64,000 nucleotides of DNA from NCBI RefSeq assembly GCF_003721565.1, contig NZ_RJJE01000001.1:248001-312000 (forward strand), written 5' to 3'. Position 1 is the first letter of the stretch. Every line of letters begins with the position of its first letter. Of this stretch, positions 2,598-40,089 are shown piece after piece. This DNA is from Rufibacter immobilis (lineage in GTDB: Bacteria; Bacteroidota; Bacteroidia; Cytophagales; Hymenobacteraceae). The notes below the pieces were generated by a model. It saw only the letters and a program-made list of their open reading frames with translations. It was not told the origin of the DNA and ran no database searches. The position numbers were made by a program, and so were the translations under genes.

Positions 2598-2653
2598 GGG
2601 GCTTTGCGTTTAGGGGCTCTTTTTCAAAAAACAGCCCCTAAACGCAAAGCCCC
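2598..2653. repeat. Palindrome family copy with extended unique arms
   Basis: The core arms gtttaggggct and agcccctaaac are present. The pairing continues outward through copy-specific bases (gggctttgc on the left, gcaaagccc on the right). One core position is changed, so the palindrome is near perfect. It begins 17 bases after the stop codon of the SMP-30-like gene. Confidence 0.85.
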
Positions 2654-2669
2654 AGGCGAAGATGATGGG

Positions 2670-3599
2670 TTACAACACGCCTTTTACCGTCATTCTCAGC
2701 CCGTACACTGCGCCCATGGCCGTGATGAAAAGCGTTGACCGGTCTTTCCCCCCGAACACCACATTGGCGGTCCAGTCCTCCTGAATGGGAATATGCGCAA
2801 TCTGTTTCCCTTCTTTGTCAAATACCGTGACTCCTTTTCCGGTGAGGTAGACGTTGCCGTGGTTGTCTATCGTCATGCCGTCTGAGCCCATGTTCACGAA
2901 CAGCTTTTTATCCGTAAGGGAACCGTCTGCCTTGATGGTGTACACGTAGGTTTTTCCGGCTTCGGCGTCTGCCACATAGAGCTTCTTCCCATCGGGCGTG
3001 CCTACAATTCCGTTTGGTTTCACCAGGTCTTCGGCTACGCGGTAAAAATGGGAGCGGTCTGGGCTTAGGTAATACACGTGCTCGCCATCCTGCTGCCTTT
3101 CGGGGTTCCTGGTCCAGTACTCTCTCTTGTACAAGGGGTCAGTGACGTACATGGCACCCGTGGGGGCAATCCAGAGGTCATTGGGGCCGTTGAGCAGTTT
3201 GCCTTGGTAATCAGAAACAAGTACCGTGTGGTGCGCCGCCTGGTCAAAAGACCAAAGCTGGTTGTCCATGTCTGCGGCCGCGATGAGATAGCCCTTCCGG
3301 TCAAAATACAGCCCGTTGGAACGCCCCGCCTGATCTGTGAACAGTGTAATCTTCCCCGTGCCGGCAGACCATTTGAAGATCTTGTTATTGGGTTGATCTG
3401 TGAAGTACACGTTCCCTTCCCGGTCTACTGCCGGCCCCTCAGTGAAGGAATATCCGTCACCCAACTTCTCCACCTGGGCCCCTTTGGCTACAATAGCTTT
3501 CTGGTCTATACTCTGTGCCGAAAGCAATGTGGGCAGCAGCAGGACAAGAACAATGCCCGCTACTGCCAAAAAGCTGTTTTGCCTAGTCATGTCAGACAC
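2670..3599 (-). CDS. SMP-30 / gluconolactonase / LRE-like beta-propeller protein
   Basis: The 309-residue protein has a signal peptide (hydrophobic to about residue 28, ending LLSAQ), so it is exported to the periplasm or beyond. A six-bladed propeller of the SMP-30 type follows, with family metal-site regions visible: SFTEGP, LNGPNDLW, KPNGIV and GSDGMTID. Relatives hydrolyse sugar lactones such as gluconolactone; the substrate here cannot be inferred. Met1 and Met4 are both possible starts. It follows the aldehyde dehydrogenase gene by 12 bases on the same strand and may be co-transcribed. A hairpin and two palindrome copies follow it. Confidence 0.85.
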   Translation of the reverse strand: MSDMTRQNSFLAVAGIVLVLLLPTLLSAQSIDQKAIVAKGAQVEKLGDGYSFTEGPAVDREGNVYFTDQPNNKIFKWSAGTGKITLFTDQAGRSNGLYFDRKGYLIAAADMDNQLWSFDQAAHHTVLVSDYQGKLLNGPNDLWIAPTGAMYVTDPLYKREYWTRNPERQQDGEHVYYLSPDRSHFYRVAEDLVKPNGIVGTPDGKKLYVADAEAGKTYVYTIKADGSLTDKKLFVNMGSDGMTIDNHGNVYLTGKGVTVFDKEGKQIAHIPIQEDWTANVVFGGKDRSTLFITAMGAVYGLRMTVKGVL

Positions 3600-10292: not shown

Positions 10293-10342
10293 TTCCGCCG
10301 TTTAGGGGCTGTTTTTGGAAAAACAGCCCCTAAACGGCGGAA
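10293..10342. repeat. Perfect palindrome family copy (50 bases)
   Basis: A perfect palindrome: core gtttaggggctgttttt plus outer copy-specific bases ttccgcc / ggcggaa. It begins 19 bases after the stop codon of the SPOR-like lipoprotein gene. Confidence 0.92.
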
Positions 10343-10361: not shown

Positions 10362-10913
10362 CTATTTGGGAATATTGATGGTTTCCTGCACCAGCAGGGC
10401 GTTGGGCAGCAAGTCCTGAATCTTGGTAAGAGCGACCTGAGCCTCTACTCTGCTCATGAAATCTCCAATCTTTAACTGATAGGTGGGTTGCTTAAACGTA
10501 AGGTAGTCTTTCTGCTCTGGCAGCCGCCTCACAATGTTGTTCCGCAGGTCCATAGCTGTTTTGCGCTCTACCCCTGTATAGGCAAGAATACGGTAACCCG
10601 CCGCATATTTGATGTTCCGGTTTACCTGCACCACACTGTCCATGAGCAGCGTCACCTGGTTGCGTACGTGGTTAGCGGGAGCCGCCGGCGCCATGGGCAC
10701 CGATGAACTGGCCGTGGCCGCAGGAATGGAAGGGCGGTACTTCTTGGTGTCTACCAGCGTAGAAGAACCACTGCCGTTTCTGTTGTCTGATGAACGGGCA
10801 GAACTGTTGGAAGCGGCACCGTTACCCGTTGAGCCACCGGTGGCCGCGCAACTCATCATGGCGCCCAAGCAAAGGAAGGCGAAAAATCTGGATGTCATGT
10901 TTCTCCAAGTCAT
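10362..10913 (-). CDS. Lipoprotein with SPOR-like C-terminal region
   Basis: The 183-residue protein has a lipoprotein signal with lipobox cysteine at residue 22 (GAMMSC), a Ser/Asn/Gly-rich linker (about 23-75), and a C-terminal region of about 80 residues (GYRILAYTGVERKTAMDLRN, then QLKIGDFMSRVEAQVALTKI). The latter has the spacing of SPOR domains, which bind denuded glycan strands of peptidoglycan. The SPOR assignment is by pattern only. The start overlaps the deoC stop by four bases (ATGA type), so translation is coupled to deoC. Met6 is an alternative start that keeps the lipobox. Confidence 0.7.
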   Translation of the reverse strand: MTWRNMTSRFFAFLCLGAMMSCAATGGSTGNGAASNSSARSSDNRNGSGSSTLVDTKKYRPSIPAATASSSVPMAPAAPANHVRNQVTLLMDSVVQVNRNIKYAAGYRILAYTGVERKTAMDLRNNIVRRLPEQKDYLTFKQPTYQLKIGDFMSRVEAQVALTKIQDLLPNALLVQETINIPK

Positions 10914-11581: not shown

Positions 11582-14500
11582 GGAGTACGCAACGGTTGTT
11601 GAGCAAATCGTTCTCTACGTTCTTGAATTTTACGTCTTTCAGGACGCGCCCATCTGTGTACTGCACATTGACGCGGTCATTGCGGCCTGCCATTTTCTCT
11701 GCTCTCACGGGTACCTGCTTAGGGGCGGGCGCCTGCGGCATAGACGGCATGGAAGGCACAGACTCTTCTAAGGTAGAGTGTACTTCTTCTTTCTGCTCAT
11801 GCAATCTTGGCGGTCTTGGCGCCTGCGGCTGACGGGCCTCCTGCACAGGGGCAGGCTGCTCTTCCTGTACCGGCAGGTTGGCTTTGAACAGGAACGAAAT
11901 GGTTTCTTCGTTCACCTTGCTGATCATGCGCTTGAACAACTCAAACGATTCAAACTTATAAATCAACAACGGATCTTTCTGCTCATACACCGCATTCTGC
12001 ACGCTCTGCTTCAGGTCATCCATCTCGCGGAGGTGCTGGGTCCAGGCCTGGTCAATGGTAGCCAGCGTGATCACTTTCTCCACGGTCTTGATCAACTCAC
12101 GTCCGTGGCTGTTCACTACTTTCTCCAGGTTAGCTACTGCGGTGATCTGCTTGCGACCGTCTGAGAACGGAACAGCTATGTTCTCAATCATCGGCCCGCG
12201 GTTCTCATAGATGTCTGCCATGATAGGCGCAGACTGGTCCATGATCTGTTGGTTTTTGGCCAGGTAGAAGTCCAGCGCCTCATTGTACAGGCGGTTCATC
12301 AACGTATCTACCGACTGCGAGGCGAGCTCCTGCGCCGTGATGGCTGAGTTGAAACCATACACTCTAATGATGTGCAGCAGGAAGTCCTCATGGTTACCGG
12401 TGGCTTTGTACGTCTGTACAATGTCCTCGGTCACGTCATAGATCATGTTCCAGATGTCCAGCTCCAGGCGCTCTCCGTAGAGGGCGTTGCGGCGGCGTTT
12501 GTATACCACTTCGCGCTGGGCGTTCATCACGTCATCATATTCCAAGAGGCGCTTCCGGGTCCCGAAGTTGTTTTCCTCTACTTTCTTCTGCGCTCTTTCA
12601 ATGGAGTTGGTGATCATGGAGTGCTGAATCACTTCGCCTTCTTCCAGACCCATTCTGTCCATGAGACGCGCAATACGGTCAGAACCGAAGAGACGCATCA
12701 AACTGTCTTCCAAGGAAACGAAAAACTGGGACGATCCTGGGTCACCCTGACGGCCGGAACGACCTCTCAACTGACGGTCTACCCGGCGGGACTCGTGGCG
12801 TTCTGTACCAATAATGGCCAGACCACCGGCGGCTTTAGATTCTGGTGTCAATTTGATGTCTGTACCACGGCCCGCCATGTTAGTGGCAATGGTCACGGTA
12901 CCTGGTTTACCGGCTTCGGCTACAATCTCAGCCTCGCGCTGGTGGTGCTTGGCGTTGAGTACCTGATGCGGAATGCCGCGAAGTTTCAGCATGCGGCTTA
13001 CCAGCTCAGAAATTTCCACGGAAGTGGTACCCACCAGTACCGGACGTCCGGCTTTGGTCAGGTTCTGGATTTCCTCGGCCACGGCGTTGTACTTCTCACG
13101 CATGGTTTTGTACACCTTGTCGTGCTCGTCTTTACGCTGGGCTACGCGGTTGGTAGGAATCACTACCACGTCCAGTTTATAGATTTCCCAGAACTCACCG
13201 GCTTCCGTTTCAGCGGTACCGGTCATACCGGCCAGCTTGTGGTACATCCGGAAGTAGTTCTGCAAGGTAACGGTGGCGTACGTTTGGGTAGCGTCTTCTA
13301 CGCGCACGTTCTCTTTGGCTTCAATGGCCTGGTGCAAACCGTCTGAGTAACGACGGCCTTCCATGACACGGCCAGTCTGCTCGTCTACAATCTTCACCTT
13401 GCGGTCTTCGGTCACAATGTACTCTGTGTCCTTCTCAAACAGGGTGTAGGCTTTGAGCAACTGGTTAATGGTGTGCACCCGCTGCGATTTCTCCTGGTAC
13501 TCCTGGATGAGGCGCTCTTTCTGGTGCAACTTGTCATCTGCGGAAAGTTCCTGGTGGTTCTCAATGGCCGCCAGCTCAGTCCCAATGTCTGGCAAGATGA
13601 ACAGGTTTGGATCTTCGCCCTGGCCGGTGATCAAGTCAATCCCTTTTTCGGTTAACTCAATCTGGTTGTGCTTCTCGTCAATGGTGAAAAACAAAGGCTT
13701 GTCGGCCTCTGGCATTTGGCGGGAATGGTCTTGCAGATAGAAAGCCTCGGTCTTCAGCAAAATCTGGCGCACGCCGGTTTCACTCAGGAACTTGATCAAG
13801 GGCTTGTTTTTAGGCAAACCGCGGTAAGCCCGGAACAAGGCCAAACCTCCTTCTTTGTCGTTTCCTTCTTTGATCAGGCGTTTGGCTTCTACCAGGTAGT
13901 TGCTCACCAGTTTGCGTTGATTTTCTACCAGAGCGGCTACTCTTGGTTTTAGCAGGTAGAACTCATGCTCATCGCCGCGCGGTACGGGACCAGAGATGAT
14001 CAAAGGCGTACGGGCATCATCAATAAGAACGGAGTCCACCTCATCTACCATGGCGTAGTGGTGCTTGCGCTGCACCAGTTCACCTGTCTCACGGGCCATG
14101 TTGTCGCGCAGGTAGTCAAACCCGAACTCGTTGTTGGTACCGTAGGTGATGTCTGCCAGGTAAGCCTTGCGGCGGGCGTCTGTGTTAGGTTGGTGTTTGT
14201 CTATGCAGTCAATGGTGATACCGTGGAACTCAAACAACGGCGCCATCCACTCAGAGTCACGCTTGGCCAGGTAATCGTTCACGGTTACCACGTGCACACC
14301 GCGTTTGGCCAGGGCATTGAGGAAGGAAGGCAAGGTAGCCACCAGAGTTTTACCCTCACCGGTCGCCATCTCGGCAATTTTACCCTGGTGCAACACAATC
14401 CCCCCAATCAGCTGCACGTCATAGTGCATCATGTCCCAGACTACCTCAGTACCGGCGGCGTTCCAACGGTTAGCCCAAATAGCCTGGTCGCCGTTGATCT

Positions 14501-15109: not shown

Positions 15110-15173
15110 GATGCACTATTCCCGTTTAGGGGCTCTTTTTGGAAAAAGAGCCCCTAAACGGGAATAGTGCATC
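15110..15173. repeat. Perfect 64-base palindrome of the gtttag family
   Basis: The core gtttaggggctcttttt is flanked by 14 copy-specific bases that pair perfectly (gatgcactattccc on the left, its exact complement on the right). It is the longest perfect palindrome in the window and is not next to a stop codon. Confidence 0.95.
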
Positions 15174-15380
15174 CCAGCCTCTAAGCAGGACAGTAATACC
15201 CAAGGGTAGACCATAGAGTATCCGGCTCTGACGCCTGATCCAAAAAGATTCTGGAGCCAAGAAAACAAAGGAAAAGCAATCGTTTACCAACTGTTTAAAA
15301 CCGCAATTTCTGCCAGTCATAATAGGTAAAAACGAACTGTTCAGGGCGTTAAGGAGGACAGGACTAGCCAGACACAAAAA

Positions 15381-15424
15381 TTCCGTTTAGGGGCTCTTTT
15401 TGGAAAAAGAGCCCCTAAACGGAA
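15381..15424. repeat. Perfect palindrome family copy (44 bases)
   Basis: The core is perfect and the outer bases ttcc / ggaa also pair. It begins 18 bases after the stop codon of the GH1-RmlD gene. Confidence 0.92.
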
Positions 15425-15442
15425 AGATATCTTCACCTAAGC

Positions 15443-17689
15443 CTAAGCCCCCGCCGACAGCAAAGATTGGTCTGCCACCTCCTCTTCTTGCGGGGGCAGC
15501 GAGGGCCGTACCGGGAACTGCGTCGCGTGCAGGAAACGCTGCAACGCATCTTCCACGGTGGGCAAAACGCCTCTCTTCACCGTGCCCAGCCCTGAAAACA
15601 TTGGTCTAGCCGCAGGCTGCCCTATCTTGGCCGAGGGCACCGCTTCCAGCCATGGTTTGGGATCTAGACCGGCCATATTGGCAGCCAAGGCGGCAAACTC
15701 GGCCCAACTGTAGGTTCCTCTGTTTGCCAAATGCCAAATGCCACTTTCTGCGTCTATAAGTAAATCTAAGGTAGTATTGACCAGATCAGGAACGTAGGTT
15801 GGGGTAATGAACTGGTCTGCCGCCGCCTCAAGCGGTTCCTGCCGCACCATCGCCTTCAGGGCATGATAAACGAAATTATGCTCGTCCCAGGGTCCGAAGA
15901 AAGCACTGGTCCTGATGACAAGGGCCGTGGGCATGGCCGCCAGCACCTGCGCTTCGGCTTCAGCTTTGCTGCGTCCGTACACATTCAGGGGCTGAGGGGT
16001 ATCTTGCTCAGTGTAAACAACCATTTTCTCGCCTCCAAAAACCAGATCTGAAGAGAAGGTCACCAGTTGCACTTGCTCCTCCTGACAGATTTTCGCCAGA
16101 ACCGCAGGCCCCAGGGTATTCTCCCGGAAACAGGCTTCCGGCTCCTGTTCGGCTTGGTCTACCCGCACGTAACCGGCAGTATTCACTACGGCCCAAGGTT
16201 TATATTGAGTTAAGGCTTTTCTAACAGAATCTTCATTGGTGATGTCCATCTGCTGGCGCGAGAGCAGCACATACGGAATACCCCGAATATCGCAGACACG
16301 GGCGAAGGCACGGCCCAGGGTTCCGGTGGCTCCCGTGATCAGGAGTGGCTGAAGCTTAGAGCCCTGTTTTGATTTGTTCAGGGAAATATCCCACACCTCC
16401 GGGCACTCCGCCGAGGGCGGATACACGCTGCGGCAGGCACGGTTCCACCAACCTGGCACCTGTAACAGAGGGTGCCGCTCCGCTCCTGAGGCTATACCCG
16501 TGAGCAATTCTGAAACAGCGGTACGGGCAGGTTCCCCGCCGCGCAGGTCATACACGCCCATTTCATAATGGCCTCTGTTCTGTGTGAGCAGGCTGTTCCA
16601 GTCATAGGCGCCCAACAAGGTCCAGGCAGTGACGCCTAATACGTTTTTGCCCTGTTCTTTTAGCAGCGAGGCGGCATCCCAGACCTCCGTGAACCAGCGC
16701 ATCTGTTCCTCGCGGGTACAGCATAGGTGCGCTTCCGTGATAGCGACGGGTAGATTATAGCGGTCACAAGCCTGTTCCAGTATCTTCTGTGCGCCCAAAG
16801 GGGAAGCCGCCTGTACGCGTACCGCCTCCACGTCCGCATAGCGGTGTTTCTGGTTGCTGCCGTGCGTGTGCCAAGGATAATCAGCGATGTGCTCATCTAA
16901 ATAACGCTCGCTGGTGACGTAGTAATTGACCCCAATCACGTTGGGCGGGCATGGGTTCTCTAGCAGTTCCAGCAAGAGCGTTTCCGGGGCCTTGGCTTTG
17001 AGCAGATAGTTCCAAAGGGGGTGCTGCTGGTTTACCTTTCCGCAGAGCAGATCCCAAGTGAGCCACCGGCGGTGGTTCTCAAAGTCTGCCTGGTATTGCA
17101 AGGCGGGGGTGCTGTGCGAGTATCCCAGGTCATCGGTCTGCACCAGCTGGGCGCTAGGGTTGATCTCCCTGATGGCCTCCATGGCTAGTTTGGTTCCCTG
17201 TATCTGGTTCAGCAAAGCTTTGACGAAGGACGCATCGTCTCTGGTATGCGGATACCACAGGCCGTACAAGGCGCTGAACCGGGCAGTGGTCAGGGGTTCA
17301 TTGATAGGGGTGTAATACGTAACCCAAGGGAATTGCCGGGCCACCGCACGTGCGTATTGCGCAAATTTATGGGGGAAGTCCTCGTCTATGAGGTGGGTGT
17401 ACCGGGGGCCGCTGCCATGATGCAGCAACCCCACGATAGGTTCAATAGTTAATTCACGGAGCCGATTCAGGCGCTCGGTAGCCCAGTCCCAGTTCTTTTG
17501 TTCTGGGTGGTCTGGCGCCACACTTTCCCATAGCACCGGATACCGTATTTTTTTGATGCCCAGCTCTGCGAACAGATCTAAATCTGACAGCCGCCGCGCA
17601 TGCCCGCTTTGGGCAAGCTGATCAAAGTACTGCTCTCCTACACGGTTTACGGTACACTCAACGCCGCCCCAAAGCTCAATGTTTGCCAT
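15443..17689 (-). CDS. Fusion of GH1-like glycoside hydrolase and RmlD-like sugar-nucleotide reductase
   Basis: The 748-residue protein has two parts. Residues 1 to about 395 resemble family 1 glycoside hydrolases: acid/base Glu131 in TPINEP, candidate nucleophile Glu319 in VAITEAH, and WTLLGAYDWNSLL near the end. Residues about 446-715 resemble dTDP-4-dehydrorhamnose reductases: nucleotide loop ITGATGTLG (451-459), Ser residues in TFSSDLVF, and Tyr571-x3-Lys575 (YGRSK). There is no signal peptide, so it is cytoplasmic. Its start overlaps the UDP-galactopyranose mutase gene by 14 bases, linking it to surface polysaccharide synthesis. A joint activity on a nucleotide or lipid-linked sugar is inference; the GH1 half may be a structural or degenerate module. 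Confidence 0.82.
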   Translation of the reverse strand: MANIELWGGVECTVNRVGEQYFDQLAQSGHARRLSDLDLFAELGIKKIRYPVLWESVAPDHPEQKNWDWATERLNRLRELTIEPIVGLLHHGSGPRYTHLIDEDFPHKFAQYARAVARQFPWVTYYTPINEPLTTARFSALYGLWYPHTRDDASFVKALLNQIQGTKLAMEAIREINPSAQLVQTDDLGYSHSTPALQYQADFENHRRWLTWDLLCGKVNQQHPLWNYLLKAKAPETLLLELLENPCPPNVIGVNYYVTSERYLDEHIADYPWHTHGSNQKHRYADVEAVRVQAASPLGAQKILEQACDRYNLPVAITEAHLCCTREEQMRWFTEVWDAASLLKEQGKNVLGVTAWTLLGAYDWNSLLTQNRGHYEMGVYDLRGGEPARTAVSELLTGIASGAERHPLLQVPGWWNRACRSVYPPSAECPEVWDISLNKSKQGSKLQPLLITGATGTLGRAFARVCDIRGIPYVLLSRQQMDITNEDSVRKALTQYKPWAVVNTAGYVRVDQAEQEPEACFRENTLGPAVLAKICQEEQVQLVTFSSDLVFGGEKMVVYTEQDTPQPLNVYGRSKAEAEAQVLAAMPTALVIRTSAFFGPWDEHNFVYHALKAMVRQEPLEAAADQFITPTYVPDLVNTTLDLLIDAESGIWHLANRGTYSWAEFAALAANMAGLDPKPWLEAVPSAKIGQPAARPMFSGLGTVKRGVLPTVEDALQRFLHATQFPVRPSLPPQEEEVADQSLLSAGA

Positions 17690-18893
17690 TCATACTCAGT
17701 TTGGTGGAACTTCCGTTTACGGTACTGCCGCTTCCGTTCAGGGCCTCGCGCACTACTTTGGGCAGCACATCTACGCCGTCTACCACTGGCACTGCAATCT
17801 TCTCTTTCTCGGTCAGTTTCTTGTGCAGCGTGAGCGCCTGCGCCACTACCTGGTCCATGTTGTAGTACTTGTAAGTAGCCAGCCGGCCCACAAAGTGCAC
17901 GTTGGGCGTGGCGTCGGCCAGCTTCTTGTACTGGTTGTAGAGCTCTGCGTTTTCTGGCTTTGGAACTGGGTAGTACGGATCTCCCTCGGCGCGCGGGAAC
18001 TCGTACACCAGGCTGGTTTTAGGGTGCTGCTGCCCGGTGAGGTACTTGAATTCTGTTACGCGGGTGTACAGCTGCTCATTGGGGTAATTCACCACGGCCA
18101 CCGGCTGGAATACTTCCTTGTTCACGGTCTCATGCTTGAACTCCAGGGAGCGGTACGGCAGTTTACCGTATTTGAAATCAAAGTACTCGTCTACCGGACC
18201 GGTGTAAATCATCTCTTTGAACGGAATCACGTCAATGATCTCGTGGTAGTCTGTATTGAGCATGATCTTGATGTTGGGGTGATCCAGCATCTTCTCAAAC
18301 ATCTTGGTAAAACCGTGCAGCGGCATGGCCTGGTACGTGTCTGTGAAGTAGCGGTCGTCACGGTTGGTGCGGGTGGGCACACGTGAGGTTACGGATTTAT
18401 CCAGCTCAGACGGGTCCATGCCCCACTGCTTGCGGGTGTAGTTCTTGAAGAACTTCTCATACAGTTCACGGCCCACTTTGCTCACCACCACATCCTCAGA
18501 GGTTTTGACCATAGGCACCTTCTCGGCCACCGACTCAAACCACTTGTCCAGCTCAAAGGACGTGAGGCTTAGCCCGTACAGTTTATTGATGGTGTCCAGG
18601 TTGATGGGCATGGGCACCTGTTGGCCGTCTACGCTGGCCAATACGCGGTGCTCATACGGCCGCCATTCAGTGAATTGCCCCAGGTACTCAAACACCTCTT
18701 TAGAGTTGGTATGGAAGATGTGCGGACCGTACTTGTGAACCAGAATCCCGTCTTCGTTATAATGGTCATAGGCATTGCCCGCTATGTGCGGACGCTTGTC
18801 TATGATTAATACTTTTTTGTTGGAGTACGTAGCTAAACGCTCGGCCAGTACACTCCCGGCAAATCCTGCACCTACAATCAGATAGTCGAACAT
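17676..18893 (-). CDS. glf: UDP-galactopyranose mutase
   Basis: The 405-residue flavoprotein converts UDP-galactopyranose to UDP-galactofuranose, the donor for galactofuranose in cell-surface glycans. The FAD-binding start is DYLIVGAGFAGSVLAERL, with the family segments GPHIFHTNSKEVFEYL, NYTRKQWGMDP, FEYPRAEGDPYYP-type (read as YEFPRAEGDPYYPVP) and FVGRLATYKYYNMDQV. Residues after about 375 form a short Ser/Asn-rich tail. It overlaps the GH1-RmlD gene by 14 bases and follows a glycosyltransferase gene, giving a three-gene surface-sugar cluster on one strand. Confidence 0.95.
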   Translation of the reverse strand: MFDYLIVGAGFAGSVLAERLATYSNKKVLIIDKRPHIAGNAYDHYNEDGILVHKYGPHIFHTNSKEVFEYLGQFTEWRPYEHRVLASVDGQQVPMPINLDTINKLYGLSLTSFELDKWFESVAEKVPMVKTSEDVVVSKVGRELYEKFFKNYTRKQWGMDPSELDKSVTSRVPTRTNRDDRYFTDTYQAMPLHGFTKMFEKMLDHPNIKIMLNTDYHEIIDVIPFKEMIYTGPVDEYFDFKYGKLPYRSLEFKHETVNKEVFQPVAVVNYPNEQLYTRVTEFKYLTGQQHPKTSLVYEFPRAEGDPYYPVPKPENAELYNQYKKLADATPNVHFVGRLATYKYYNMDQVVAQALTLHKKLTEKEKIAVPVVDGVDVLPKVVREALNGSGSTVNGSSTKLSMNGKH

Positions 18894-18983
18894 ATATGGG
18901 CTAATTTTAAATATTTCTTAGATAGCTGCTATGATTGAAACTACTGCGCTTTCGCTGCCTGCTGCTCTTTCAGGGGCAGGGCC

Positions 18984-19045
18984 GGCAGTGGTGTCCGTTT
19001 AGGGGCTGTTTTTGGAAAAACAGCCCCTAAACGGACACCACTGCC
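18984..19045. repeat. Perfect 62-base palindrome of the gtttag family
   Basis: The core gtttaggggctgttttt is flanked by 13 paired copy-specific bases (ggcagtggtgtcc and its complement). It lies 27 bases after the glycosyltransferase stop and upstream of glf. Confidence 0.95.
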
Positions 19046-20605: not shown

Positions 20606-21133
20606 TCAAGAAACAGATAGCAACTTCTGGAACTCCACCACATTTTGCCAGCCGCCGGGCGTACGGAGCCACTCTTGGCGCACCCCTATTTCCTGAAAGC
20701 CCGCCTGCCGGAAAAGCTTTAGACTGGCTGTGTTCTCCTGCCCCACTGAGCAGTACAATTGATGCAGTTGCAGCACCTGGGCGGCGTATGCTTCCAGCAG
20801 TTGCAGCACTTCCAACCCGTACCCCTTGCCCCGTTGGGCGGCGGCCAGGGCAATGCCCACCCCCGCCCGCTGGTGCAGGGGCTCAAAGTCAAAAAGGTCA
20901 ACGGTGCCAATGACGATGTTATCCGTTTCGCGCAGGCATACCATGAGCCTCAGTTGGCGGGCAGCGTAAATGTCTGCCGTGGCGTTCTCCAGATACTGCC
21001 GCAGCACCTCCCTTGAAAACGGCGTAAGGGACAAACTCACCGGCCACAGCGTAGTGTCATTCTCAAAGTCAAAGAGAAAGTCTAGGTCTGAAGGTTCTGG
21101 CGCGCGAAGGGCAATGCGGGAAGTTTGCAGCAT
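20606..21133 (-). CDS. GNAT-family N-acetyltransferase
   Basis: The 175-residue protein starts at ATG 21133 (MLQTSRIALRAPEPSDLDF). The open frame continues to a TTG at 21280, but that stretch is translated palindrome sequence (MEKQPLN...) and is rejected. The fold is that of the RimJ/RimL-type acetyltransferases, with the acetyl-CoA loop AAAQRGKGYGLEVL (the Q/RxxGxG/A signature) and the C-terminal segment NTASLKLFRQAGFQEIG. It would acetylate an amine on a protein, peptide or small molecule; the substrate is unknown. It follows dapF on the same strand with a palindrome in between. Confidence 0.85.
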   Translation of the reverse strand: MLQTSRIALRAPEPSDLDFLFDFENDTTLWPVSLSLTPFSREVLRQYLENATADIYAARQLRLMVCLRETDNIVIGTVDLFDFEPLHQRAGVGIALAAAQRGKGYGLEVLQLLEAYAAQVLQLHQLYCSVGQENTASLKLFRQAGFQEIGVRQEWLRTPGGWQNVVEFQKLLSVS

Positions 21134-21258
21134 GGCAAATGAGGCGAAGGTGGTTTCTGTTTTGGAGTTAATTCCTGAAAAACGGGCGCTAAACGCAAAC
21201 GGACCACAGCATCGGGCGCCGCCCGAATGACCACACAGCCAGCGTCCAGAGCTTTTTA

Positions 21259-21297
21259 CGTTTAGGGGCTGTTTTTCCAAAAACAGCCCCTAAACGC
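21259..21297. repeat. Perfect core palindrome copy after dapF
   Basis: The 39-base core is perfect (cgtttaggggctgtttttc outward) but the outer bases do not pair. It begins nine bases after the dapF stop codon. Confidence 0.92.
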
Positions 21298-21306
21298 AAG
21301 CGTTCT

Positions 21307-22077
21307 TTACAGGTTGATTTCCCCGTGGAATACCTGCACGGCCGGACCTATGAGGAAGACGTTCTTGAACTGTCCGTCTTCTTGCTCAAAACTTACCTGC
21401 AGTTCGCCGCCCAGCACCTCAATCTGCACGGGGCTGGTGTAACCGGCGCGGCTGGCGGCCAGGGCGGCGGCGGTCACACCCGTGCCGCAGGAGAAGGTCT
21501 CATCCTCTACGCCCCGCTCATAGGTACGCACGAAAAGCTTGTTCTCTGGCTGGTGCTCCACAAAGTTCACGTTGGTTCCTTCGGCCTTGAAACGGTCTGA
21601 GTAACGGACGGCACGGCCTTCGGCATACACGTCCAGTTCTTTCAGGGCGGGCACCTGCTTCACGTAATGCGGGGAGCCGGTGTTCAGGAAGCAGGCGTCT
21701 TCCAGGTCTTCTATGGTGTCTACGTCTCTCATCTGCAGGTGCACCAGCCCGTCTTTGAGGTAGGCCTGGTGCGGCCCGTCGGCGGCCAGGAAATAGGCCT
21801 GGTCTTCCACCACGCCCAGGAACTGCGCAAACGCCACCAGACAGCGTCCGCCGTTGCCGCACATGGAGCTGGGCCTGCCGTCTGCGTTGTAGTACACCAT
21901 CTCAAAGTCAAAGCCTTCTTTGGGTTGCAACAGCATGAGGCCATCGGCGCCCACGCCTTTGCGGCGGTCACAGAGAAAGGCCACCTGCTCCCGGCTCAGT
22001 TCAAGGTCCTGGTTGCGGTTGTCCAGCACCACAAAATCATTGCCGGTGCCCTGGTATTTATAGAAAGTCAAGTTCAT
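21307..22077 (-). CDS. dapF: Diaminopimelate epimerase
   Basis: The 256-residue protein starts at ATG 22077 (MNLTFYKYQGTGNDF); an in-frame extension to 22116 adds non-conserved residues. It converts LL- to meso-diaminopimelate for lysine and peptidoglycan synthesis. The two catalytic cysteines are Cys73 (MCGNGGRCL) and Cys197 (SCGTGVTAAAL), in the two mirror-like domains expected for the family. It is cytoplasmic. It is divergent from the methyltransferase at 22268; the region between them holds a nested inverted repeat that may carry both promoters. Confidence 0.96.
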   Translation of the reverse strand: MNLTFYKYQGTGNDFVVLDNRNQDLELSREQVAFLCDRRKGVGADGLMLLQPKEGFDFEMVYYNADGRPSSMCGNGGRCLVAFAQFLGVVEDQAYFLAADGPHQAYLKDGLVHLQMRDVDTIEDLEDACFLNTGSPHYVKQVPALKELDVYAEGRAVRYSDRFKAEGTNVNFVEHQPENKLFVRTYERGVEDETFSCGTGVTAAALAASRAGYTSPVQIEVLGGELQVSFEQEDGQFKNVFLIGPAVQVFHGEINL

Positions 22078-22091
22078 GTTCTTTTGGGGTA

Positions 22092-22229
22092 TCGTGTAGC
22101 ACGTAGTGCGTATCAAGAATCACGACAGGCGTTTAGAGGCCGTTTTTCAGAAATCGGGCCTAAAACAGAAGTAGGCTATCTATCACCCGTTTCTGTCTTG
22201 CTACATCATACGTACTACGTGATACGAAT
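22092..22229. repeat. Imperfect inverted repeat between divergent genes
   Basis: The left arm (22092-22127, cgtgtagcacgtagtgcgta...) and right arm (22192-22229, ...tacgtactacgtgatacg) are imperfect inverted copies that enclose a degenerate gtttag palindrome. It fills the space between dapF and the methyltransferase, so it may be a small nested mobile repeat or regulatory structure. Confidence 0.6.
22129..22167. repeat. Degenerate palindrome family copy
   Basis: Imperfect-subfamily copy: arms gtttagaggcc and gggcctaaaac with centre gtttttcagaaatc. It lies between two divergent starts rather than after a stop codon. Confidence 0.65.
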
Positions 22230-24900: not shown

Positions 24901-25348
24901 GAAAGTTGTTTTTGCACGCATTTGGCTGATGCCACGGAGCAACTGCCTTTTTATGGCTTTAGGAGCTCTGTTGTTTCATTTCTTCTGATAAGCGCTCACG
25001 GCCGCGGGGCCCCGTCTTCCCCTCTCGCACTGCCCTTGTGGCCAAGTAGCTGTGGTTGGCGTTTAGTTTCTGCTTTTCTTTGGCCACAAGCGAGGCGCTC
25101 TAGGGAAAGACTGGAAATGGTGCGGGTAGTAGAGACAGTTGGTTCTTTAGGCTTTTGTTCGAAGCTGACCGCTGGTCAAGGCTCGGCTTTGCCACTATTG
25201 CTGACACTCCCCCTTTGAAGGGGGCGAAGGGGGATGTTTACACCCGCAGATCTCACACATTTGGCTAATTACGTTTTGGGCACGTTTTTCAGAAAACATG
25301 CCCAAAACGTAAATATGATCTAACTCCTATACCCCATTAAAAACAGGG
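24901..25348. other. Intergenic region of stacked small inverted repeats
   Basis: These 448 bases between convergent ppx and TPR genes carry no convincing gene. They hold an inverted repeat with 11-base arms (cttgtggccaa at 25035 and its complement ending 25090), a C/G-rich unit at 25203-25231 (ctccccctttgaaggggg...), and a palindrome variant at 25269-25312. The pattern suggests accumulated repeat insertions with a terminator role. Confidence 0.55.
25269..25312. repeat. Divergent palindrome variant (gttttgggcacg form)
   Basis: The arms are ttacgttttgggca and tgcccaaaacgtaa around cgtttttcagaaaaca. It shares layout and centre with the gtttag family but has a different arm sequence. It begins 37 bases after the stop codon of the TPR gene. 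Confidence 0.75.
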
Positions 25349-27840: not shown

Positions 27841-27884
27841 CTGCGTTTAGGGGCTGTTTTTGGAAAAACAGCCCCTAAACGCAG
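27841..27884. repeat. Perfect palindrome family copy (44 bases)
   Basis: Core arms plus outer ctgc / gcag pair perfectly. It begins 29 bases after the stop codon of the MuiA-like gene. Confidence 0.92.
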
Positions 27885-27913: not shown

Positions 27914-29530
27914 TTACAAGCCGCTCACCTGCTTGTTTTTAGGGTACTTGACTACGTAGCGCAGAGACCGTTTCACTTCTTCATTTGGTTTGAGCACCAC
28001 TTGCCACGTGACTTTACCGGTTTCTTTGTTCCATTGGCCGCCGTTGGTGTCTACGTCTTCCACTTCAATCTCAGAGGTGGTGCTTAAGGGAATCTGGTCT
28101 TCTACCGTGATGGTGACCGGTTGGGCCTTGGTGTTGCGCAGGCTGATCTCATACCCAAACTGCTCTTTGACGTTGCTGCCCAAGGTGGTGCGCTTCTGGT
28201 AGTCTTTCATCCGTTCGCGCTGCACCACCACATTCTGATCGCGGCCCAGGGATAAAGTGAGCGTGTCGCGGGTTTGTTCGGGGTTCAGGAACGATTTCCC
28301 GGTGAAAGTGCCAGCCAGAAAAACATTAGCCTCGCCGGGCAACAGCTTCAGGTTCTCCCAGTTAGTAAGATGCGCCACCAGAAACGCTGTTTTATCCAGT
28401 TTAGGAACGGTAGTATGGGCGTAAGCGGTAGGGAGGCTGTGCTGCTGAATGTCTACGGTGTGGGGCTTTCCGTCTGAAGGCACGCTGAACGGAATCCCGA
28501 TCTTGAATTCGGCGGCTAAGGTGGTGGAAACAGCCTCGGTGAAGTCTGCGGTGCTGGTAGCAGGGGCGGCGGTGACAACTTCCTCTCGTAACTGCAGAAC
28601 CTCCTCGTCTTTCTTGATTACTGGAGGTGAAAATTTAACTTTTCTTCTAATTGGAGGATCTTGCAAAATCCCAACACGTTGCGGTTCCAACTCAGGCTTC
28701 TGGGCACCTTCAGCTGGGTTAGTGGTAGCTAGAGTTAATTGCACGTTGTCCCAGTTCACGCCGGTGTTCTGCCGCACGTTGGCTTTGTATTGCAGTTGCA
28801 CCGGCCCTTGGTTTCCGCTGGCGCGAAGGTCATAAATGGGTTCCCAGCCGGCGTTGTACACCAGGTACGTGGCCTCCAGTCCCACCGGGGTTCTTGCCGC
28901 AGCCTGCACGGCCACAATCACGCGGTTGTTGGCGTTCTGGTTGCTCCTGGCTTGGTTCACCTGGTTGTTGAATTGCCCCTGCCGTTCCTTCAGCACCGCA
29001 AGCCGGACGTCAACGGTATGGATTTCTTTCCTGATCGCCAGCAGGCGCGTGCGGTAGTAATCGGCTACTTCTTTGAGTCGGGCGGCGGTGAGGCCGGTTT
29101 GGGAACCACCTATATTCTGGTTCGCCTGCAGGAGCGCTTCCTCCTTCTGCAATACCTCCCGTTGGTCGGTTAAAGTTCTGATGCGGCCGTTGTAACTCTG
29201 CAGAGAATCTTCCAGCCGTTGCAGTTCTTTGGGCTTCCCGGTGTTCCGCAGGAAATTCTGCTCATACCGCACCGAAAGCAAAGTCACGTTGCCGGTGGGG
29301 TTTACCTGCACGCTGCGCTCATCTATCTGCGCCGGCAGGCCCTCCAGCACCAGTTCAGTAATGCCCGGCTCCACGGTGGTACGCCCAACGTTGGTGACCT
29401 GCGCCCGGTTCAGGAATACCGTAACGGCTTTCACCTGGGTAAGCATTGCTTCCTGTTTTTGGCCTAAAACCGGAAAAACGTGCCCTAAACAGACCATCAG
29501 ACAACAGAGGCAAACAACAATTTTTTTCAT
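27914..29530 (-). CDS. MuiA-family (DUF4140/DUF4139) protein
   Basis: The 538-residue protein matches the mucoidy inhibitor A family. It has a signal peptide (about residues 1-23), an N-terminal DUF4140 domain (AVTVFLNRAQVTNVGRTTVE), a central coiled coil at about 85-190, and a C-terminal DUF4139 domain beginning near TYLVYNAGWEPIYDLRASG and ending RYVVKYPKN. The biochemical role is unknown; the name comes from effects on capsule in other bacteria. It would act in the periplasm. A decayed copy of the palindrome family overlaps the signal-peptide codons. It is divergent from the LDH2-type gene at 29646. Confidence 0.85.
   Translation of the reverse strand: MKKIVVCLCCLMVCLGHVFPVLGQKQEAMLTQVKAVTVFLNRAQVTNVGRTTVEPGITELVLEGLPAQIDERSVQVNPTGNVTLLSVRYEQNFLRNTGKPKELQRLEDSLQSYNGRIRTLTDQREVLQKEEALLQANQNIGGSQTGLTAARLKEVADYYRTRLLAIRKEIHTVDVRLAVLKERQGQFNNQVNQARSNQNANNRVIVAVQAAARTPVGLEATYLVYNAGWEPIYDLRASGNQGPVQLQYKANVRQNTGVNWDNVQLTLATTNPAEGAQKPELEPQRVGILQDPPIRRKVKFSPPVIKKDEEVLQLREEVVTAAPATSTADFTEAVSTTLAAEFKIGIPFSVPSDGKPHTVDIQQHSLPTAYAHTTVPKLDKTAFLVAHLTNWENLKLLPGEANVFLAGTFTGKSFLNPEQTRDTLTLSLGRDQNVVVQRERMKDYQKRTTLGSNVKEQFGYEISLRNTKAQPVTITVEDQIPLSTTSEIEVEDVDTNGGQWNKETGKVTWQVVLKPNEEVKRSLRYVVKYPKNKQVSGL
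29452..29493. repeat. Palindrome remnant inside the MuiA signal-peptide coding region
   Basis: On the minus strand this reads ctgtttagggcacgttttt, then ccggttttaggcc, resembling the gttttgggcacg variant at 25269-25312. It encodes the end of the signal peptide and the first mature residues of the MuiA-like protein. Confidence 0.5.
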
Positions 29531-36288: not shown

Positions 36289-36450
36289 TAGTTAAGAGTT
36301 AAAAGTTAGGAGTGAAGAGTTGGTGACACACCTGTTCTTCGCTCCGCGGAATTGGAAGGTGCGTTTAGAGCCTGTTTTTCTGAAATCAGACCCAAAACAG
36401 ATGTCAACTTTCTCCTCAACTTTTAACTCTTCACTCTCAACTCTTAACTA
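36289..36450. repeat. Inverted repeat of gttaagagtt units between tldD and tldE
   Basis: Left arm 36289-36326 (tagttaagagttaaaagtt...) and right arm 36405-36450 (...aactcttaacta) are imperfect inverted copies made of short gaagagtt / gttaagagtt units. They enclose a degenerate gtttag palindrome. The element occupies the whole intergenic space. Confidence 0.65.
36361..36400. repeat. Imperfect palindrome family copy
   Basis: Arms gcgtttagagcctg and cagacccaaaac around tttttctgaaat. It lies 75 bases after the tldD stop, inside the gttaagagtt inverted repeat. Confidence 0.65.
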
Positions 36451-36456
36451 ACAACA

Positions 36457-37791
36457 ATGGCAATATTAAGTAAAGACCAAGCCCAGGGCATCTTGAAGAA
36501 GGTGATGGCCCTGAGCAAAGCCGATGAGTGCGAGGCGAACCTAAACGGCGGCAAAGCGGGCAACGTGCGCTATGCGCGCAATTCAGTTTCCACGGCCGGT
36601 GAGTCGCATACCACCTCGCTGGTGGTGCAATCTTCCTTCGGGAAACGGGTGGGCACGGCTACCATTAATGAGTTTGACGATGCCTCTCTGGAGAAAGTGG
36701 TGCGTCGCTCAGAAGAATTGGCTAAACTAGCCCCATAGAACCCTGAATACATGGGCGTGCTGGGTCCGCAGAAATATATAACCACCAATCCTTACTCGGC
36801 TACTACGGCGGCCATCACGCCAGACAAACGCGCCGAAATGGTGGCCCAGAGTATTGCGGCTGCCAAAGCAAAAGGCATGACCGCAGCGGGCTATCTGCAA
36901 GACAACGTGGGGTTCCAATCCATGATGAACAGCAAAGGATTGTTCGCCTATAACACAGACACGGGCGTTGATTTCTCCTTGACGGTGCGCACCCCAGACG
37001 GTACCGGTTCTGGGTATGTCTCCAGAGGGTTCAATGACGTGAGCAAACTAGACACCGCCTCAGTCTCTAACATTGCGGTAAACAAAGCCACGGGCTCGGC
37101 CAACGCCAAAGCTCTGGAGCCGGGTAAATACACGGTTATTCTGGAGCCTGCCGCCGTGGCCGTGATGCTGGAGAATCTGTTCTACGGGATGGATGCGCGC
37201 TCCGCAGATGAAGGCCGCAGCTTCCTGAGCAAACCGGGCGGTGGCAACAAAATTGGGCAGAAATTGGTGGACGAGCGGGTGACCATCTACTCAGACCCGG
37301 CACACCCAGAGCTACCCACGTCACCCTGGGCGGGCGATGGTCAGGCCCTGAACAAAGTCACCTGGATAGACAAAGGCGTGGTGAAACAGATTCCGGTCTC
37401 CAGGTACTGGGCACAGCAGAAGAAGATAGCACCGGTTCCGTTCCCTAACACAGCCATTATGCAGGGCGGTACGCAGAGCCTGGAAGACCTGATCAAAGGC
37501 ACCCAGAAAGGCATCTTGGTCACGCGCCTGTGGTACATCCGGAGCGTAGACCCGCAGACGCTCCTGCTCACCGGCCTCACCCGCGATGGAACTTTCTACA
37601 TTGAGAACGGCAAGATCAAGCACGCGGTCAAGAACTTCCGGTTCAACGAGAGCCCCATCATCATGCTCAACAACCTGGAAGCCATTGGCAAAAGTGAACG
37701 CACCGTGAGCGGCGAATCCAGCAACAACTACCTGCTGCCACCGCTCAAAATCAGAGACTTCACCTTCAGCAGTTTGTCAGACGCGGTGTAA
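36457..37791 (+). pseudogene. tldE: TldE/PmbA-like gene with in-frame stop codon
   Basis: The gene would encode about 444 residues. An in-frame TAG at 36736-36738 (codon 94) interrupts it, and the same frame continues at once with NPEYMGVLGPQKY, which matches the expected LAPENPEYMGV of the family; a single G-to-T change of GAG would explain it. The second part contains the family segments DEGRSFLSKPGGGNKIGQKL and NYLLPPLKIRDFTFSSLSDAV. TldE lacks the zinc motif and partners TldD. TAG ends other genes here (htrA and the metalloprotease), so it is a true stop. Two different lesions in a functional pair suggest decay. Confidence 0.8.
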
Positions 37792-37808: not shown

Positions 37809-37852
37809 TTGCGTTTAGGGGCTGTTTTTGGAAAAAGGGCCCCTAAACGCAA
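37809..37852. repeat. Palindrome family copy after tldE
   Basis: Near-perfect: core arms plus ttgc / gcaa pair, with one mismatch in the centre. It begins 17 bases after the tldE stop. Confidence 0.9.
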
Positions 37853-37922
37853 TTCATCTCTACAGAGGCTCTTCTCTCTGGCGTAAGCGGGCGCTTATGC
37901 CAAGGGGAAGAGTCAGCTTTTC

Positions 37923-37962
37923 CTGTTTAGGACCTCTTTTTCCAAAAACGGCCGCTAAACAG
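37923..37962. repeat. Imperfect palindrome family copy
   Basis: Arms ctgtttaggacc and gccgctaaacag around tctttttccaaaaac. It is the second copy in the 330-base gap between tldE and the Hsp70 gene. Confidence 0.75.
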
Positions 37963-37977
37963 AAACTTTCGTTTCAT

Positions 37978-38010
37978 AAAAAGCCCCGCTAGGTATAGCG
38001 GGGCTTTTTA
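37978..38010 (+). terminator. Rho-independent terminator downstream of tldE
   Basis: Stem aaaaagccccgct / agcggggcttttt with six-base loop. It lies 187 bases after the tldE stop and upstream of the Hsp70 promoter, so it insulates the two. Confidence 0.85.
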
Positions 38011-38074
38011 TATAGCGCCAAGTCAATCAGTTACTAAGAAGAAACCGTAAACCTGTTCACAGGCTATTTCTTTG

Positions 38075-39984: not shown

Positions 39985-40021
39985 TGTTTAGGGGCTCTTT
40001 TTGGAAAAAGAGCCCCTAAAC
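39985..40021. repeat. Perfect core palindrome copy after the Hsp70 gene
   Basis: Core arms tgtttaggggct and agcccctaaacg are intact and almost fully paired. It begins four bases after the Hsp70 stop codon. Confidence 0.9.
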
Positions 40022-40030
40022 GCACATCCA

Positions 40031-40074
40031 TAAAAGCAGAAGGCGCTACTGTACAGTAGCGCCTTCTGCTTTTA
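40031..40074. terminator. Perfect bidirectional terminator between hscA and divIC
   Basis: A 44-base perfect palindrome (taaaagcagaaggcgctact...) with A-rich entry and T-rich exit on both strands. It ends the convergent Hsp70 and DivIC transcripts. Confidence 0.9.
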
Positions 40075-40089
40075 TGGTCTTTCTGTGAA

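Follow-up and report, generated by a model that had tools for sequence, protein, structure and literature searches.

Short hairpins with a common core recur between the genes of Rufibacter immobilis, and the stretch analyzed here, a window of 64,000 nucleotides (contig NZ_RJJE01000001.1, positions 248,001 to 312,000, renumbered from 1), contains nine copies with the pattern GTTTAGGGGCT-N-TTTTT-NN-AAAAA-N-AGCCCCTAAAC. These hairpins form an intergenic family that is specific for the genus, is located for the most part no more than some tens of bases past stop codons and occupies sites that are older than the species. The core of the family comprises around 36 bases, namely GTTT, five variable bases, CTn and TTT, plus the mirror of this sequence, and the family resembles the repetitive extragenic palindromic (REP) elements. 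We somewhat favor an account in which two DNA copying processes shaped the hairpins, the replacement of half-arms between loci and fold-back template switching in the outward direction, with some hairpins kept as terminators. The more specific claim, that half-arms spread as independent units, that matched hairpins grow by mirroring their own flank and that perfect hairpins are made by mutation and not by stepwise selection, is put forward tentatively, with expectations a little under even.

The family was abundant in the genome of the window (G000; 17 contigs, 4.77 Mb) and was compared with relatives in the genus (other G numbers; one genome per species). A genome-wide search with the core, allowing at most 3 mismatches, yielded 869 matches in G000 and none for a reversed-pattern control. 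Of the 16 genus genomes, 12 contained the strict core (869 copies in G000, 108 in G001 and at most 45 in the others), as did none of 82 genomes from outside the genus. When the 15 orthologous hairpins of position 15381 were used to train a covariance model, at least 53-59 matches were obtained in each of the 16 genus genomes (58 candidates were scored per genome); outside the genus the model returned 0-4 matches per genome, and any at all in 19 of 82. Our own motif scan recovered 25-118 strict hairpins per genome from 140-464 kb of five genomes, a further 14 from 46 kb of G001, and none from simulated sequence with equal dinucleotide steps. An Rfam search of the window gave no match at the gathering score, and in the literature we found no account of such repeats for Hymenobacter or Rufibacter. 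In a comparison of SecA sequences, Pontibacter fetidus (79%) was the closest named relative among the matches listed.

The 118 strict copies recovered from 464 kb of G000 were mostly found between tandem genes (74 copies, 59 of which were closer to the stop than to the next start); 25 were located between convergent and 8 between divergent genes, 6 at the ends of open reading frames (ORFs) and 5 more than 60 nucleotides inside a predicted ORF. Gene calls were length-ranked ORFs, assigned mechanically and not curated. This placement fits a 3' element. At one locus (L051 around 10969, corresponding to C8:198969 of G000) a minus-strand ORF seems to enter the hairpin and to stop at a TAG inside GTTTAGGGG, and a family repeat may therefore supply the stop codon of an ORF at that locus.

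Single arms were typed in 307 relaxed hairpins from 864 kb of G000, where an arm was called new-type if it had at most one mismatch to AGGGGCT. Both arms were new in 137 hairpins, exactly one in 122 and none in 48. At least one new half-arm was thus present in 259 of the 307, which corresponds to over 80% of the sites sampled in this species. Counted per arm, 396 of 614 were new-type in G000; the corresponding numbers for five relatives were 22 of 196, 11 of 210, 6 of 124, 12 of 88 and 2 of 30. Within an arm the diagnostic bases showed strong linkage (p=1e-39 for A5 and G9), and across arms they showed little (p=0.19 and 0.017). Such linkage within nearly independent arms is expected when half-arms are replaced from other loci, and is not expected when whole hairpins are inserted. 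Exact half-arms, 242 in total in 864 kb, were found in detected hairpins (230), elsewhere in intergenic DNA (11) and once in coding DNA. Within the half-new hairpins, the new arm was the 5' arm relative to the neighboring genes in 45 cases and the opposite arm in 27.

Comparison of the same sites between species, after matching shared intergenic regions through their neighboring genes, made clear that the positions of the hairpins have been inherited. The presence of a hairpin in both species at a shared region exceeded chance in 9 of 9 genome pairs (Fisher p 4e-10 to 0.03), with for instance 29 observed against 12.8 expected for G004/G014 and 13 against 6.8 for G000/G010. At the 15381 site an orthologous hairpin was found in 15 of 15 resolved genomes, with stems that vary by species apart from near-matches such as G004/G014. 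In the alignment of this site 93.6% of the cells were paired (32-59% in slid controls), and there were 45 double-change cells against 12.1 after shuffling, next to 5 one-sided changes and 20 unpaired cells. At the 10293 site the outer stem TCCGCC/GGCGGA, contained in the TTCCGCC/GGCGGAA flank stem of the window copy, is largely common to several species around a differing core. The alignment of that site covered the 14 resolved genomes minus G004, G007 and G015, in which the best-scoring hairpin was not the family one; in G007 and G015 the family hairpin can be seen by eye.

When five relatives were searched for the intergenic regions of G000, one or more of them shared the regions of 39 AGGGG-arm hairpins, and 30 of these were opposite a family hairpin, none of which had an AGGGG arm; one AGGGG arm does occur in G010 at the 10293 site, a region outside this count. 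No coreless site that could be aligned was found in the empty-site comparison. Considering the fact that relatives hold hairpins at the same places with different cores, the core did not arrive by insertion into empty sites, and the present core seems to have replaced older versions at its sites. The idea that a core had entered an empty target with inverted duplication of that target, implicit in a preliminary description of the window, is not supported: the relatives carry a hairpin of the same architecture, and at 10293 several of them have the same outer stem around another core.

The two hairpins emphasized in the preliminary description, at 15110-15173 and 18984-19045, have long flanks that are paired beyond the core. 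At the former site 14 of 15 relatives, all but G011, had a scored family hairpin 163-176 nucleotides from the secA start; these hairpins comprised 9-17 core pairs and 0-4 paired flank bases, as compared to 17 and 14 in G000. In G006 and G013 no other hairpin is present in the region, and it is this hairpin that was aligned at 15381. At the latter site a hairpin was scored in 5 of 15 relatives, with degenerate ones seen by eye in others, and none had a comparable paired flank. Given the absence of long paired flanks in these relatives, the long pairing of both hairpins looks newly gained in this species. Two further comparisons were not used as evidence. With respect to a possibly much faster evolution of the core than of the flanks, the rate of difference in 23 aligned G004/G014 pairs was 0.26 for the variable core positions and 0.20 for the closest 12 flank bases, but similarity of the flanks had been the criterion in selecting these pairs; and the duplicated segments carrying hairpins were only diverged repeats among the matches listed.

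Pairing of unique flanks is a general property of the family. The preliminary description had reported perfectly self-complementary flanks of 14 bases at 15110-15173 and 13 bases at 18984-19045, and shorter extensions at 2598, 10293, 15381 and 27841; these coordinates and pairings are exact, the shorter extensions measuring 10, 7, 4 and 4 bases, respectively, and genome-wide collection of copies with measurement of their arms extends the observation. At least 5 flank bases were paired in 45 of the 118 strict G000 copies and at least 8 in 21, as compared to 2.6% and 0.1% after 20,000 swaps of flanks between copies. The first 3-5 flank bases are partly a shared consensus (TTTGC / GCAAA), which is retained in this control. 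The pairing is not universal, and 23 of the 118 had none. In the relatives at least 5 bases were paired in 8 of 48 (G005), 6 of 25 (G010), 10 of 34 (G004) and 8 of 34 (G014) copies, with swap controls of 0.2-1.7%.

The extent of flank pairing is coupled to the quality of the core. In G000 at least 5 flank bases were paired in 58 of 101 hairpins with perfect or near-perfect cores, in 18 of 71 with intermediate and in 1 of 135 with imperfect ones, and the same trend was seen in relatives, in small numbers (3 of 5 for perfect versus 8 of 171 for imperfect cores, and 9 of 15 versus 1 of 70). In 97 of the 137 hairpins with two new arms the flank ends of the two sides belonged to one class, as compared to 40.9 expected under independence. 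In addition, the stems stop sharply. Past the first outer mismatch, the frequencies of pairing over eight bases were 0.11, 0.14, 0.20, 0.29, 0.29, 0.29, 0.33 and 0.20 in G000 (n=83) and 0.19-0.41 in relatives (n=37). The first two values lie under the background of 0.25.

At one site the direction of flank copying can be read. The G000 hairpin at C8:217902 has the sequence TAAcctgc|core|gcaggTTA, in which the stop codon of the gene is mirrored on the far side. The stop-side flank resembles that of G005 (TAAcct) and G004 (taaccgcct). A hairpin was scored at most 30 nucleotides from the stop in 8 of 15 relatives, with a flank pairing of 0-3, and the stem reached the stop codon in none of these 8; in the other 7 no hairpin was scored. 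The stop codon identifies the near flank as the original and the one on the far side as the copy. At two other sites compared across the 16 genomes (C10:368452 and C1:443771) the stop-side flank was too poorly conserved to indicate a direction, and several species had paired flanks of their own. The pattern looked for as a test of template switching, a reverse-complement block beside its source with sharp ends, was found, as seen in the ends of the stems and, at one site, in the direction as well.

These patterns could be accounted for as follows. Between loci, the half-arm GTTTAGSGGCT[C/G]TTTTT would spread over older arms by copying, each arm largely on its own, as the arm typing suggests. 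Within a hairpin whose core arms match, a replicating strand would fold back, copy the stem outward into unique DNA and then return to its template (template switching, as known for quasipalindromes), which would place the reverse complement of a unique flank on the opposite side of the core and give a sharp end. The hairpins that are followed by a run of T residues would then work as intrinsic terminators and would be retained by selection.

Selection as terminators is also the basis of the main competing explanation, in which long-stem intrinsic terminators are favored and the unique flanks are simply the base of the stem, kept paired by compensatory substitutions. As sole cause we consider it possible, and on balance rather unlikely. 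It agrees with the placement past stops, exemplified by the 59 of 74 tandem copies that are closer to the stop than to the next start, and with the orthologous hairpin and double changes at 15381. The T residues following the paired-flank stems are likewise in its favor: in G000 (n=50) the 8 nucleotides after the stem contained 3.04 T in the sense direction and 2.18 in the antisense direction (p=0.006), and in relatives (n=25) 4.60 and 2.40 (p=0.0009), suggesting that selection as terminators could explain part of the pairing. Five or more T out of 8 followed 11 of 50 stems in G000 and 15 of 25 in relatives (3 and 4, respectively, in antisense), copies with at most 2 paired flank bases showed no T enrichment, and TTTTT comes after both 15110 and 15381 when they are read in the same direction as the gene with its stop at 15443. 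The subset with a T-run, judged by its sequence, probably acts as intrinsic terminators that are kept by selection. On the other hand, 20 of the 50 paired-flank copies between tandem genes of G000 had at most 2 T out of 8, the hairpin at 18984 lacks a T-run, and some copies lie beside separate terminator-like hairpins (at 37976 and 40028). The sharp ends of the stems argue against selection alone, as does the scarcity of one-sided changes at 15381 (5, with 20 unpaired, versus 45 double changes). Sense-oriented core mismatches comprised 242 G.U and 227 A.C (p=0.52), which is unlike an RNA stem that is selected in one direction. Both of the mechanisms envisaged in the preliminary description find some support: duplication of a flank, inverted, on the opposite side is in line with the sharp ends, the coupling to perfect cores, the lack of a G.U excess and the mirrored stop codon, and selection with compensatory change, in part, with the conserved position, the covarying stems in 15 species and the T excess in sense.

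Besides the T excess, several observations weigh against the account based on two copying processes. In half-new hairpins the flank type only weakly follows the arm (GC-ended flanks on 55 of 122 new sides and 39 of 122 old sides), and at 10293 and C8:126342 the flank pairing predates the present core. The direction of copying can be read at a single site, where 5 bases past the shared TGC are informative. The closest pair of genomes is 88% identical in the secA region, so no copying event was caught in the act. The G.U and A.C counts derive mostly from imperfect copies, and the 7 G.U and 2 A.C in flank stems are too few to judge. Finally, pairing resumed after a short gap in 0 of 75 cases as compared to 23 of 3000 random flanks, a comparison that has no power and adds nothing.

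A REP-type transposase (RAYT/TnpA-REP) might move hairpins as single strands, with inverted target duplication at insertion. Proteins of the Y1_Tnp type are present in 15 of 16 genus genomes, and the single G000 gene is flanked by family hairpins on both sides with a third at around 0.8 kb. Nevertheless, the number of hairpins near this gene (3 in 3.2 kb versus around 1.1 expected) and near 12 such loci together (15 in around 39 kb versus around 11 expected from hairpin densities) is not clearly above background, G006 has hairpins and no Y1_Tnp match, the REP tags are not enriched, and the independence of the arms is contrary to insertion of a whole element; we regard a transposase as quite improbable. 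Slightly less credit still is given to an insertion of the core into pre-existing terminator hairpins, at the loop, with the old stems as the present flanks. Flanks such as AAAAAAGC...GCTTTT are indeed common to G000, G004 and G014 around different cores, similar to the shared outer stem at 10293. However, the same core architecture was found in the relatives compared, none of which showed a coreless terminator, many flanks do not resemble terminators (e.g. GGCAGTGGTGTCC), and long paired flanks are lacking in relatives at 15110 and 18984. The least probable option, in our opinion very remote, is a drive like that of uptake sequences, in which the half-arm would be a DNA uptake signal, inverted pairs would form hairpins and the species would have changed its dialect. 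The half-arm as unit and the species-specific versions would suit it, as would the formation of terminators by inverted uptake signals in other bacteria, as outlined in PMC2267715. Against this drive, 230 of the 242 exact half-arms lie inside detected hairpins and 1 in coding DNA. A DNA uptake sequence proper, with abundant single copies also within genes, was rejected as identity of the half-arm considering the 12 of 242 outside detected hairpins and the one in coding DNA.

The gene for the G000 Y1_Tnp (RAYT-like) protein is located at C1:452724-452942 (locus L174), and its family hairpins lie around 265 nucleotides before and around 260 nucleotides after the ORF (1131-1166 and 2238-2273 of the locus). 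The third (2779-2814), around 0.8 kb after the ORF, abuts a terminator-like hairpin. The absence of SbcCD was considered as reason for the persistence of long palindromes and was ruled out, as an SbcD model matched 16 of 16 genomes (SbcC was not searched).

Among known systems, REP elements are the closest kind, minus their tag. As outlined in PMC3733652, PMC12306157 and PMC8266576, REP, BIME and REPIN sequences are short intergenic palindromes that occur in hundreds of copies, often 3' of genes, and the present family agrees with the description of a REP as a high-copy extragenic palindrome of 20-40 bp. The REP tag is a GTAG or CGTC tetranucleotide at one end, according to the outline in PMC3733652. 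GTAG, CTAC, CGTC and GACG were present in 22, 14, 6 and 8 of 614 flanks, without enrichment over backgrounds of 3.3, 3.0, 2.0 and 2.0%, and the family was for that reason not filed as REP. It differs furthermore in that it has no proven link to a transposase, and has longer, often perfect stems, orthologous sites throughout the genus and paired unique flanks. Gene conversion was reportedly raised as a route of REP evolution in a study of 1988. With intrinsic (rho-independent) terminators the family shares the hairpin after the stop codon and, in some copies, the T-run; it deviates by its very long perfect stems, its shared core, the many copies without T-run and the separate terminator-like hairpin beside some of them. 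The inverted pairs of DNA uptake sequences (DUS) and uptake signal sequences (USS), with their dialects, are similar in having a half-site as unit, species-specific versions and terminator-like pairs, and differ in that the half-arms of the present family are seldom located elsewhere than in hairpins and almost never within a gene.

Template switching has been described as a process that generates hairpins and perfects them (PMC8794818, in outline), and template-switch mutations associated with quasipalindromes, as well as the creation of RNA hairpins by template switching, are the subject of this line of work (also PMC7202029 and PMC8604942). The likeness lies in multi-base reverse-complement copying that builds or perfects the arms of a hairpin, as sketched in PMC8794818; in the present case such copying would have affected hundreds of hairpins in one genome and would have extended into unique flanks, the events themselves not being observed. 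The origin and upkeep of long perfect hairpins is an old question with two answers, compensatory substitution and template switching. The family offers hundreds of copies per genome, sites that are comparable over at least 16 species and half-converted intermediates, so that the two answers can be separated by counting. It would also display a genome sweep, in which a repeat replaces its own older copies arm by arm.

Within the window, 8 of the 9 copies are located 4-29 nucleotides past the stop of an ORF. The copy at 2598..2653 (flank pairing 10) lies 16 nucleotides past the end of ORF 2670-3599 (minus strand, stop at 2670), and that at 10293..10342 (flank pairing 7, TTCCGCC/GGCGGAA) 19 nucleotides past the stop of ORF 10362-10913 (minus strand). 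The exception is the copy at 15110..15173, which has perfect 31-base arms (17 core and 14 flank) and a 2-base loop, is followed by TTTTTATGGG after the stem when read on the minus strand, and is found 269 nucleotides past the stop at 15443, with its core 172 nucleotides from the secA start (14951) and the 15381 copy between it and the stop. The latter (15381..15424, flank pairing 4) lies 18 nucleotides past the stop of ORF 15443-17689 (minus strand) and is followed on that strand by TTTTTGTG. The copy at 18984..19045 has 30-base arms (17 core and 13 flank). At 21259..21296 (flank pairing 1) the hairpin is 10 nucleotides past the stop of ORF 21307-22116 (minus strand) and is overlapped by a doubtful, TTG-started ORF from the mechanical list (20606-21280), and at 27841..27884 (flank pairing 4) it is 29 nucleotides past that of ORF 27914-29530 (minus strand). 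The copy at 37809..37852, with 2 mismatched core positions and flank pairing 4, follows the plus-strand ORF 36751-37791 by 17 nucleotides. The last one, at 39986..40021 (flank pairing 0), is 4 nucleotides past the stop of an HSP70 (dnaK-like) ORF, and the same stop in G014, G005 and G001 is adjoined by hairpins with different cores. A divergent member (GTTTTGGGCA...TGCCCAAAAC) was found at 25267..25318 and weak members at 36353..36412 and 37915..37970.

No family copy was recovered in the region from 43 to 64 kb, where genes are closely packed. This region was considered as a mobile element and rejected, as the six proteins tested were EF-G, S7, S12, SecY, RpoA and RpoC. A terminator-like hairpin at 37976-38011 (AAAAAGCCCCGCTA...TAGCGGGGCTTTTT) shares its intergenic region with the family hairpins at 37809 and 37915. 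Directly after the 39986-40021 hairpin, between the convergent HSP70 and DivIC-like ORFs, there is a separate perfect palindrome with 25-base arms and no loop (40028-40077), which is probably a two-way terminator. Elsewhere, a second intergenic repeat of around 160 bases was observed near family hairpins, with copies in L063 (around 11719-11884) and L247 (around 12639-12800) that are 87% identical and that have inverted ends of their own (CTCGCTCGCGTCCCGCGAG).

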